A stretch of 64,000 nt of DNA from Christiangramia echinicola DSM 19838 (GTDB lineage Bacteria > Bacteroidota > Bacteroidia > Flavobacteriales > Flavobacteriaceae). The stretch lies in the NCBI RefSeq assembly GCF_000423065.1, contig NZ_AUHG01000010.1, positions 744,001 through 808,000 of the forward strand, written 5' to 3'. The notes below the pieces were generated by a model. That model was not told where the DNA came from. It was given only the letters and a program-made list of their open reading frames with translations, and searched no databases. Shown one piece after another: positions 29,016 through 44,196 of the stretch (positions are counted from its first letter, which is position 1; every line of letters starts with the position of its first letter). Both the position numbers and the translations under genes were made by a program.

Positions 29016-29073
29016 TGTCATCCTGAACTTGATTCAGAATCTTCAGAGAAGCTGTTTCCAGCTCAGCTTGACG
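29016..29073. repeat. dispersed palindrome pair (divergent)
   Basis: GTCATCCTGAACTTGATTCAGAATC is followed after about 10 bases by a degenerate inverted partner ending CAGCTTGACG. Together they can fold into one long hairpin. This is the leftmost copy of the family. Confidence 0.7.
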
Positions 29074-35679: not shown

Positions 35680-35693
35680 GGTGCTTAATTAGA

Positions 35694-35775
35694 GACCCTG
35701 AATCAAGTTCAGGGTGACTTTATAGTTACCAGAAATCATACGGAACCTGTCATGCTGAACTTGATTCAGCATCTC
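35694..35775. repeat. palindrome pair A-B, copy 1
   Basis: A: CCCTGAATCAAGTTCAGGG within 35694-35718; B: TGCTGAACTTGATTCAGCA within 35749-35775, 30 bases apart and in opposite orientation. The stop codon of the adjacent GIY-YIG relic falls in the end of B. Confidence 0.85.
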
Positions 35776-36058
35776 ATCTTTCAAAAAATAAATCCTTTAA
35801 TTCTGGATTGAAATCTTTGATTAAATTCCATTTCTATTCTTTACGCCAATTCTTTAATTGTTTTTCTCTTGAGATAGCCTGGTTGATATCAGTAAATTCT
35901 TCAAAATAAAGCAAATCAATGAGGTTGTATTTTTTGGTAAAATCTGAACCTTTTCCATTTTTATGTTCAGTAATTCTTTTGTTCAAATCCCCGGTTACAC
36001 CAATATATTTTACAGTTTTATTCTTATTAGAGAGGATATAGGTATAACCTTTTTTCAT
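35774..36058 (-). pseudogene. GIY-YIG nuclease gene, copy 1, cut by a premature stop
   Basis: From ATG 36058 the frame encodes MKKGYTYILSNKNKTVKYIGV, with the GIY-YIG core (YTYIL and YIGV), an Arg in TGDLNKRITEH and the catalytic Glu in REKQLKNW. A TGG to TAG change stops it after 74 residues (35834-35836). The remaining codons (NLIKDFNPELKDLFFE) are still readable up to the old TGA at 35774-35776. The catalytic core is complete, so a shortened product could still fold. Its start is 14 bases downstream of palindrome A (36073-36097). Confidence 0.8.
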
Positions 36059-36072
36059 TTTCAAAAAGTAAA

Positions 36073-36155
36073 GACCCTGAATCAAGTTCAGGGTGACATT
36101 TTATTTGATATAAGTTATAATGGAGCTCGTCATGCTGAACTTGATTCAGCATCTC
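36073..36155. repeat. palindrome pair A-B, copy 2
   Basis: A at 36073-36097 and B at 36129-36155, separated by 31 bases that differ from those in copies 1 and 3. It lies between the two GIY-YIG genes, serving as the leader of copy 1 and the tail of copy 2. Confidence 0.85.
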
Positions 36156-36438
36156 ATATTTCAAAAAACAAATCCTTTAATTCCGGATTGAAATCTTTAA
36201 TTAAATCCCATTTCCATTCTTTACGCCAATTCTTTAATTGTTTTTCTCTTGAGATAGCCTGGTTGATATCAGTAAATTCTTCAAAATAAAGCAAATCAGT
36301 GAGGTTGTATTTTTTGGTAAAATCTGAACCTTTTCCATTTTTATGTTCAGTAATCCTTTTGTTCAAATCCCCGGTTACACCAATATATATTACAGTTCTA
36401 TTCTTATTAGAAAGGATATAGGTATAACTTTTTTTCAT
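36154..36438 (-). CDS. small GIY-YIG endonuclease-like protein (URI-like), copy 2
   Basis: A 94-residue single-domain GIY-YIG protein. YTYIL and YIGVTGDLNKRI form the GIY-YIG and arginine motifs, HK-G-GSDFTKKY follows, and the Glu of SREKQLKNWRKEWK is the metal ligand. I set the start at ATG 36438, because a longer frame reads only through palindromes. The family resembles the nuclease domain of UvrC and intron homing enzymes and could nick DNA. ATG is 14 bases after palindrome A, and its TGA stop overlaps palindrome B, so the gene is embedded in the repeat. Confidence 0.85.
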   Translation of the reverse strand: MKKSYTYILSNKNRTVIYIGVTGDLNKRITEHKNGKGSDFTKKYNLTDLLYFEEFTDINQAISREKQLKNWRKEWKWDLIKDFNPELKDLFFEI

Positions 36439-36452
36439 TTTTAAAAAGTATA

Positions 36453-36534
36453 GACCCTGAATCAAGTTCAGGGTGACGTTATAGTTACCAGAAATCCTAC
36501 GGAGCTCGTCATGCTGAACTTGATTCAGCATCTC
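36453..36534. repeat. palindrome pair A-B, copy 3
   Basis: A at 36453-36477, B at 36508-36534. The 30-base linker, including ATAGTTACCAGAAATC, matches that of copy 1, which shows a common origin of the two outer pairs. It ends 5 bases before the MutS-like gene stop. Confidence 0.85.
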
Positions 36535-38676: not shown

Positions 38677-38689
38677 TTTTTAATTTTTA

Positions 38690-38768
38690 GACCCTGAAAC
38701 GAGTTCAGGGTGACGCTACTATTTTGATAAATTTTTAATCTCCGTCATGCTGAACTTGATTCAGCATC
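38690..38768. repeat. palindrome pair A-B
   Basis: A-type CCCTGAAACGAGTTCAGGG (38690-38714) and B-type TGCTGAACTTGATTCAGCA (38744-38768), 29 bases apart, lie between two minus-strand genes with the same spacing and orientation as around the GIY-YIG unit, but without a nuclease gene. Confidence 0.8.
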
Positions 38769-38770
38769 CG

Positions 38771-40570: not shown

Positions 40571-40694
40571 CTTCTTCGAAATGACAAATTAAGATTATAA
40601 GGTAAAATCATATCGACCAGAGGGAGAAATCTACGTGCGTCATGCTGAACTTGATTCAGCATCTACAGAGACTCTGAAACGAGTTCAACACGAG
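40571..40694. repeat. cluster of D-, B- and A-type repeats
   Basis: A partial D-type unit (CTTCTTCGAAATGAC, then TCGACCAGAGGGAGAAATCT) is followed by B (40639-40664) and, after 3 bases, by a degenerate A (40668-40694, ACTCTGAAACGAGTTCAACA). It fills the gap between the cyclase-family and HemW genes. Confidence 0.7.
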
Positions 40695-43703: not shown

Positions 43704-43760
43704 GTCATGCTGAACTTGATTCAGCATCTATTGGAGACCCTGAATCAAGTTCAGGGTGAC
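43704..43760. repeat. palindrome pair B-A, close spacing
   Basis: B (TGCTGAACTTGATTCAGCA, 43704-43729) is followed after 6 bases by a perfect A (CCCTGAATCAAGTTCAGGG, 43736-43760). The order is reversed relative to the GIY-YIG unit, so the two palindromes could form one long hairpin that acts as a terminator after the glycosyltransferase gene. Confidence 0.8.
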
Positions 43761-44135: not shown

Positions 44136-44196
44136 GTCACCCTGAACTTGATCCAGGAGCTATTTCATGAGATGTTGAATCGAGTTCAGCACAACG
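44136..44196. repeat. degenerate palindrome pair (right limit of the family)
   Basis: GTCACCCTGAACTTGATCCA followed by GGAGC (44136-44160), and GATGTTGAATCGAGTTCAGC followed by ACAACG (44170-44196), keep the A/B layout with substitutions. No further copies were seen to the right. Confidence 0.6.

Follow-up and report, generated by a model that had tools for sequence, protein, structure and literature searches.

Small GIY-YIG nuclease genes between their own palindrome families in many bacteria suggest a missing enzyme for a common class of bacterial repeats

Introduction

Why does a gene for a very small nuclease lie, twice in a row, between copies of the same palindromes? The question is raised by a locus of Christiangramia echinicola DSM 19838, situated in a stretch of 64,000 nucleotides which we call the window. 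A first-pass annotation of this DNA proposed that the GIY-YIG nuclease plays a role for the palindromes akin to that of the REP-associated tyrosine transposases (RAYTs), in a system unlike RAYT.

The palindromes carry the tag of the CGTC repeats, which were found in five phyla by a 2013 survey; hosts include G. forsetii, Neisseriae (dRS3), R. conorii (RPE) and Novosphingobium aromaticivorans. In the parts of the survey available to us, these elements are mostly dimers with the tags outside and are apparently without a dedicated transposase (PMC3733652). The results below suggest that the nuclease is the missing enzyme spreading this common class of bacterial repeats, and that its genes lie between their own palindrome family in many bacteria. 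Genomes (G) and loci (L) are cited by our working numbers, G000 being the window genome.

Architecture of the window locus

The locus (35693-36533) has the form doublet-gene-doublet-gene-doublet. Three doublets of an A and a B palindrome surround two GIY-YIG genes of the minus strand, and the order on the plus strand is A1-linker-B1-gene(-)-A2-linker-B2-gene(-)-A3-linker-B3 (Table 1). As described in the first-pass annotation, two genes sit between three palindrome pairs; the A arms (AGACCCTGAATCAAGTTCAGGGTGAC) and the B arms (GTCATGCTGAACTTGATTCAGCATCT) prove to be exact copies. The unit of about 380 bases given there corresponds to start-to-start spacings of 379 and 380 between the doublets, and the overlap of the TGA stop with the B palindrome amounts, in both gene copies, to one shared base. 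Linkers 1 and 3 were also rightly called the closest: doublets 1 and 3, linkers included, are 92% alike over 90 nt, compared with 80% over 54 nt for doublets 1 and 2. Two details had to be corrected. The distance from the TCT end of the A palindrome to the ATG is indeed the same in both copies, but it is 13 nt and not 14. Furthermore, both genes are present but only one is intact, because an in-frame TAG at codon 75 breaks the copy nearer 35.8 kb (36058-35774), where the intact copy has TGG. The two copies differ at 12 codons.

Along the direction of the gene the arrangement reads [AGA-hairpin B-TGAC]-linker-[GTCA-hairpin A-TCT]-gene-[AGA-hairpin B-TGAC]-linker-[GTCA-hairpin A-TCT]. The gene is therefore enclosed in two ways: by an inverted pair whose GTCA tags point outward, and by direct copies of the doublet on its two sides. 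Five relatives carrying the gene at this site (G003, G005, G015, G016, G022) have one unit only, and the tandem copy is therefore special to the window among the genomes compared.

Table 1. Genes and palindromic repeats located in the window
Feature	Position	Strand	Basis
A palindrome, doublet 1	35693..35718		exact copy
B palindrome, doublet 1; last base common to TGA of broken copy	35749..35774		exact copy
Second GIY-YIG copy, broken by TAG codon 75 (35834-35836)	35774..36058	-	ORF and codon comparison
A palindrome, doublet 2	36072..36097		exact copy
B palindrome, doublet 2; last base common to TGA of intact copy	36129..36154		exact copy
Intact GIY-YIG gene, 94 aa	36154..36438	-	PF01541 E 4.8e-17 (longer ORF containing gene); invariant residues
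A palindrome, doublet 3	36452..36477		exact copy
B palindrome, doublet 3	36508..36533		exact copy
Lone doublet of the window family, where G001 and G015 have doublet-gene-doublet	38689..38769		site comparison
Dispersed B palindrome with degenerate outward partner	40639..40664		pair fold z -1.6, not significant
Gene-less dispersed unit with outward tags, [GTCA..TCT]-5 nt-[AGA..TGAC]	43704..43760		folds as one long hairpin, z -7.8
Dispersed degenerate outward unit	44136..44195		sequence reading

The protein

The window protein matches PF01541 (Table 1), and this single domain takes up all of its 94 residues; no Pfam match to a separate DNA-binding region (NUMOD and the like) was obtained. Across 33 sequences 13 columns are invariant, among them Y7, Y18, G20, T22, R28, H32, E65 and K69; we take Y7, Y18, R28, H32 and E65 to include the catalytic residues of the GIY-YIG domain. 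The predicted structure has a pLDDT of 95.9. Its nearest solved folds are the UPF0213 protein BH0048 (E 4.7e-4) and Slx1 (E 0.013, TM 0.63 on the query), and a profile search of solved structures matched only UPF0213 BH0048 and EF2693. Slx1 is a nuclease of branched DNA and acts with Slx4 in eukaryotes. Searches of PADLOC, PHROG and NCBIfam returned weak partial matches only (best 1.7e-6) and no useful family name.

The median dN/dS is 0.126 and no value reaches 1 (52 usable of 143 pairs with 0 < dS < 2.5; pairs share genes). Intact copies therefore look to be under purifying selection. In a separate tandem locus (L006:1498-1797), one of two GIY-YIG copies has YYVE and the other YYVG; the former is probably inactive because YYVG is replaced.

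Dispersed palindromes in the window genome

The palindromes are not confined to the gene. The B pattern (at most 2 mismatches, related variants included) has 66 copies in the 3.51 Mb window genome compared with 0 for the reversed control, and is thus beyond chance. Copies without a gene in the window form outward pairs whose arms are 4-8 nt apart, most clearly at 43704-43760; others are degenerate or mixed, including those at 29017, 31429 and 31588 besides 44136. The gene-bearing unit corresponds to such an outward pair in which the gene stands in place of the short spacer. Rfam models matched two tRNAs in the window and nothing at the repeats.

The same genome holds six GIY-YIG copies of four lineages (E up to 0.001), each lineage flanked by a different repeat family. 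The four copies outside the window are bordered by three further families: GTCATTTCGA...GAGAAATCT / AGATTTCTC...TCGAAATGAC; TGAGCCTGTCGAAGTGC / ACTTCGACAGGCTCA, around two tandem GIY-YIG genes; and GTCCATTCTGAATG...GAAGAATCT / AGACTCTTCGCTTTGCTCAGAGTGAC. Taking one arm for each of the four families and allowing 1-3 mismatches, 66, 24, 8 and 7 copies were counted genome-wide, the 66 taking in close variants, and each reversed pattern gave 0. The last family looks young and local, since five of its seven copies lie at most 800 bp from its gene.

Some further repeat arrangements were encountered. An arm array with a spacing of about 100-112 bp extends on both sides of a GIY-YIG gene (G000:C5:58155-58938, L003), with two further arm copies genome-wide. 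Repeat islands in which several palindrome families alternate occupy G000:C4:140-206 kb, among them an array that repeats every ~96 bp near C4:205.5-205.9 kb. A sister subfamily that pairs AGAAGCTGAA..TTCAGCTTGAC with AGATCCTGAA..TTCAGGATGAC is present in several of the genus genomes (e.g. G003:C2:278384-278442).

Dispersed palindromes of this kind might be moved by another transposase, of the RAYT/IS200 type or other, with the nuclease gene merely carried along. RAYTs are held to move GTAG REPs, according to the available portions of two studies (PMC2817692, PMC3733652), which makes such an arrangement conceivable. However, a search for the Y1_Tnp family found no match in G000, G001, G003, G005 and G022, though each has 33-66 repeat copies, and the accessible part of the survey states for its CGTC species that CGTC sequences flank none of the tyrosine transposase genes (PMC3733652). 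We consider a passenger gene very unlikely. For the window genome itself, a RAYT was rejected as the mover, no Y1_Tnp/RAYT (PF01797) match being present in G000. A protein of PF01541 in a genome without a PF01797 match also agrees with the wording 'unlike RAYT' of the first-pass annotation.

Flanks of the gene across bacteria

Is the embedding in repeats a general property of the gene? Three gene sets were collected by protein similarity: a genus-to-order set, which omits 12 of the weakest match rows of the relatives search, a set from named genomes of many phyla, which comprises the best 80 of at least 582 confirmed loci, and a phylum set of 30 loci from the best-matching genomes. For each gene, the 200 bp on either side were aligned locally with each other, directly and in inverted orientation. 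The controls are further ORFs of 100 codons or more from these loci, some of which may not be genes, treated in the same way. Segments with short or N-filled flanks were left out (1/107, 3/82 and 1/30, respectively).

A score of at least 18 in either orientation, taken as a shared repeat, is reached by 94 of 106 gene segments and 9 of 89 control ORFs of the genus-to-order set, which includes gene fragments and a tRNA-linked group whose shared repeat is a tRNA part. The corresponding values are 67/79 genes versus 105/533 controls for the named set (best 80 of at least 582 loci) and 26/29 versus 1/27 for the phylum set. Raising the score to at least 25 leaves 75/106, 59/79 and 23/29 genes versus 1/89, 12/533 and 0/27 controls, in the same order. 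Genes below the threshold of 18 number 12/106, 12/79 and 3/29. The contrast is conservative because the controls lie only a few kilobases off, in the same repeat-rich stretches.

In our view, the association of the GIY-YIG gene with palindromes is secure. Homologues lying mostly away from palindromes, which the first-pass annotation had named as the outcome contrary to its proposal, are contradicted by these counts. The constant distance of the palindromes, which it suggested checking, holds in part: the ATG is found 11-14 nt past the palindrome in 9 of the 12 measurable genes with the window repeat type, but not in the other 3. Small ORFs might also come to lie in repeat-rich intergenic stretches by chance, beside palindromes which act as terminators. 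The strong folding and intergenic position of the palindromes would suit that explanation, but the control ORFs of the same loci score far lower and the repeats are clade-specific (see below), so that its probability is practically nil.

Typical flanks in the named set are GTCATTCCCGCGAAGGCGGGAATCCAG - gene - CTGGATTCCCGCCTTCGCGGGAATGAC, as seen in the part of the 80 loci that was read by eye, and the CGTC tag is present in L256. On plasmid pNL2 of N. aromaticivorans DSM 12444 the gene has CGTCGCCCCGTGCTTGACACGGGGCTTGGCT on one side and an exact inverted copy of it on the other; the core pattern has 5 copies on this plasmid, two of them being the flanks of the gene. The gene is bordered by GTCATTCCCGCGCAGGCGGGAATC-type repeats in an N. 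gonorrhoeae record and occurs in tandem units in S. meliloti (L217).

Two plasmid loci deserve mention for their gene neighbours. On plasmid AZO_p3 of Azospirillum lipoferum 4B the gene and its repeats are located between sufB and sufC (L257:1486-1779), and on plasmid p1 of Planktothrix agardhii between an MmeI-type restriction gene and the DISARM gene drmA (L216:1489-1773).

A separate group of small GIY-YIG genes (L076, L084, L085, L087, L088, L090, L091, L093, L094, L095) is found beside tRNA genes for Val, Arg, Leu and Met, upstream in most loci and downstream in L088 and L095. A tRNA is predicted in 10/10 of these loci. Most carry a partial tRNA copy on the opposite side, and some genes are in tandem. 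The group looks like a doublet-gene-doublet in which tRNA parts provide the hairpin.

Correspondence of protein clade and repeat type

The protein tree comprises 95 genes and 100 columns, with many forks open. A strict test took the 62 of 95 genes whose two flanks carry one and the same repeat type and left out 33 (15 without a label, 18 labelled on one side). For 11 repeat types, one of which consists of tRNA parts, these 62 genes require 10 changes on the tree, which is the minimum, and shuffled labels required at least 37 (200 shuffles). When each orthologous context is represented by a single gene, 25 genes and 10 types give 9 changes, again the minimum, versus at least 15 after shuffling. 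When one-sided labels are included, 80 genes give 11 changes, one above the minimum. The labels behind these counts are regular expressions written after reading the flanks and were not blind. A check free of labels and tree gave the same direction: among 4168 pairs of genes that differ in genome and lie in non-orthologous contexts, flank similarity climbs with protein identity (Spearman 0.34, compared with at most 0.11 in 999 permutations). Repeat type follows protein clade.

Co-occurrence of gene and repeats

A gene like L019 (E up to 1e-8) is held by 151 of 296 genomes of the window's phylum, and 38 of the 59 genomes in the relatives search have a GIY-YIG match. Repeats were counted in the phylum with the pattern GTCATTCC-N10-GGAATC. 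At least 3 copies occur in 51/151 genomes with the gene versus 4/145 without, and at least 10 copies in 26 versus 0; the totals are 1222 copies in gene-bearing and 31 in gene-less genomes, and Fisher values for this co-occurrence overstate its significance because related genomes are not independent. Fewer than three copies are present in 100 of the 151 gene-bearing genomes, as expected if other clades serve other repeats.

Closer to the window, the B pattern has at least 5 copies in 13/13 genus or relative genomes with the window gene clade, or its remnant, and repeats (G000, G001, G002, G003, G005, G010, G012, G015, G016, G022, G028, G030, G032). Among the other 46 relatives, nine contain 8-62 copies (G004 46, G006 62, G011 27, G013 21, G014 23, G017 43, G021 8, G029 8, G037 9), and six genomes of the genus without the matching gene clade have 21-62. 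G013 gives no GIY-YIG match at E 0.001 despite its 21 copies. Equal abundance of palindromes in genomes lacking the gene, the other contrary outcome raised in the first-pass annotation, is thus contradicted at phylum scale, but the genus has these six exceptions. Gene loss after spreading may explain repeats without the matching gene. They are also the main evidence against a spread driven by the nuclease.

Could the palindromes spread by host slippage or recombination, and the gene be a free-standing homing endonuclease which lands on them? GIY-YIG homing endonucleases exist, and among the weak matches of the window protein are PHROG homing-endonuclease models and the NCBIfam group I intron endonuclease model. 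Moreover, doublet-gene-doublet resembles homing into a doublet, and some relatives do have palindromes without the gene. In contrast, only 31 of 1253 pattern copies fall in phylum genomes without the gene, and each labelled repeat type stays within one protein clade, which independent palindromes would not require. Homing into independently spreading repeats is less likely because, across the phylum, genomes without the gene have far fewer of these repeats, and we regard it as unlikely.

The enzyme might instead be a domesticated repair nuclease, that is, a structure-selective host enzyme active at cruciforms or branched DNA, for which the palindromes are substrate or control sites and not cargo. 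This would suit the fold near Slx1, and a repair study of Caulobacter crescentus, in the portion available, lists three small COG2827 genes whose role is unknown, and one of them has an SOS box (PMC1839093). However, the gene is patchy both among the relatives and in the phylum (counts above), several copies are broken or in tandem, and unlike copies share one genome, as with mobile genes. Such a host function is, in our estimate, very improbable indeed.

Presence and absence at orthologous sites

The region between two genes which we label, from their protein sequences, MmcQ-like and YdjM-like was compared in 20 relatives, and two intergenic sites were read. At the window site, G022 reads flank-[B-linkerX-A]-gene-[B-linkerY-A], and in G017 this flank is followed by [B-linkerY-A] alone. 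G011 has repeats without the gene, and G007, G008 and G023 have 42-61 bp with no repeat. The second site (window 38677-38770) contains doublet-gene-doublet in G001 and G015, broken genes between repeats in G016, G012 and G002, and one doublet in G000 and G022. A doublet of another family is present in G003, G005, G006, G011, G014, G017 and G021, and G004, G007, G008, G009, G013, G020 and G023 have no doublet.

Sphingobium megaplasmids provide a second case, with seven records matching along the whole query. Four aligned records have the gene between CGTCACCCCGGGCTTGACCCGGGGTCCCG and a near-exact inverted copy, one of these genes with a one-base deletion. At the same place TomTYG64 has a single palindrome CGTCACCCCGGGTCAAGCCCGGGGTGACG and no gene, TomTYG74 has this palindrome with two bases changed and no gene, and TomTYG72 and TomTYG65 have neither palindrome nor gene.

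The whole unit is thus present or absent at orthologous sites (G022 versus G017; Sphingobium plasmids) with palindromes as the boundaries, which is compatible with gain or loss. The comparison for precise insertions that the first-pass annotation suggested thus shows palindrome-bounded differences, in which gain and loss look alike. Five aligned pairs from the G003/G005 stretches, mostly about 80% identical, were searched for empty sites and had no clean junctions; no target-site rule was seen in these diverged stretches. The Rhizobium plasmid set had no clean empty site.

A possible mode of propagation

Gene and palindromes together are probably a small mobile element, built on a REP-associated GIY-YIG nuclease, analogous but not related to RAYT, that recognizes, cuts and multiplies its repeats. 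What is observed here is the flank architecture, the match of clade and repeat, the dispersed gene-less copies, the palindrome-bounded presence and absence, the purifying selection and the lack of a Y1_Tnp match in the window genome. The flank test and the co-occurrence in the phylum also support the RAYT-like role proposed in the first-pass annotation. Recognition of the hairpin, cleavage and repair-driven copying by the nuclease, and with them the movement of repeats, are what we infer.

The stand-alone nuclease of ~95 aa, with its fold near UPF0213 and Slx1, would recognize hairpins which belong to its own repeat family and bear the (C)GTCA tag, and cut at those repeats, most likely when they are extruded as hairpins or cruciforms. 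Repair or strand transfer could then copy the gene-plus-doublet unit into other palindromes, turning a doublet into doublet-gene-doublet. The same process may multiply the gene-less units [GTCA-hairpin-TCT]-short spacer-[AGA-hairpin-TGAC]. Cutting at extruded palindromes with recombination or strand transfer is suggested by a nuclease fold akin to that of a branched-DNA enzyme, the hairpin repeats, the one repeat type per clade and the doublet-gene-doublet form. It would explain why n genes come with n+1 doublets, the tandem units (window, S. meliloti L217, the C5 array) and the solo palindromes which remain after loss. Against this explanation, some genes lack shared flanks (counts above), and the repeat islands shared by several families on one contig could reflect permissive regions and not the activity of linked genes.

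Comparison with known systems

The available literature was consulted for a link between such nucleases and palindromes. No association of GIY-YIG with palindromic repeats appears among the listed titles and abstracts of the open-licence literature, preprints aside. Neither 'palindrom' nor 'flank' occurs in the accessible text of the GIY-YIG superfamily survey (PMC1564403). Two later REP papers, in their available text, have CGTC repeats in the reference lists only (PMC12306157, PMC6006769), and a paper combining GIY-YIG and 'extragenic' lists them as unrelated genes in the section at hand (PMC9465073). No later enzyme for CGTC repeats was met in the text at hand from papers using that name. 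The intragenic REP list of the 2013 survey, in the part available, omitted hypothetical proteins under 120 aa (PMC3733652), and the GIY-YIG proteins here have about 95 aa. In our view, within the literature searched, the kind of element is new.

With more caution than for the element itself, we lean towards a broader statement: stand-alone GIY-YIG nucleases may be the missing enzymes of CGTC-tagged repeats across bacteria (dRS3 etc.). They would form a second, independently evolved class of REP-propagating enzymes, in which a structure-selective nuclease of 95 aa, by cutting the cognate palindrome, propagates both hairpin DNA and the gene that encodes it; a sister class would do likewise with tRNA gene parts. 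If the nuclease drives CGTC repeats, how a common kind of bacterial intergenic repeat arises can be tested with short DNA hairpins and a protein of 95 aa, and the enzymes that spread DNA repeats gain a new catalytic class. Many small genes annotated 'GIY-YIG nuclease family protein' or 'excinuclease ABC subunit C' would also acquire a role.

The closest folds are those of the UPF0213/COG2827 and Slx1 nucleases, and the UPF0213 structure entries are titled hypothetical proteins. Like GIY-YIG homing endonucleases, the protein has a GIY-YIG domain and possibly spreads as a stand-alone selfish gene. Unlike them, it consists of one domain of about 95 aa, which leaves no space for a distinct DNA-binding region, and its gene is flanked by palindromes instead of residing in an intron or a split target gene. 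The repeats resemble the CGTC REPs (Di Nocera 2013; including Neisseria dRS3 and Rickettsia RPE-4/RPE-6), with the same tag and head-to-head dimers whose tags point outside. As in RAYT/REP systems (REPtrons, REPINs), the gene is flanked by inverted palindromic repeats of which dispersed copies occur apart from it, the repeats vary together with the enzyme, and gene presence correlates with repeat number; the same kinds of evidence served for RAYTs in the available parts of Nunvar et al. 2010 (PMC2817692). In contrast to those systems, the enzyme is a GIY-YIG protein (PF01541) and not a Y1/HUH tyrosine transposase, the tag is CGTC/GTCA and not GTAG, and the gene lies also between direct copies of the doublet. 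We set the system apart as a new kind because it fails tests by which RAYTs and known homing endonucleases are defined while apparently working like a RAYT.
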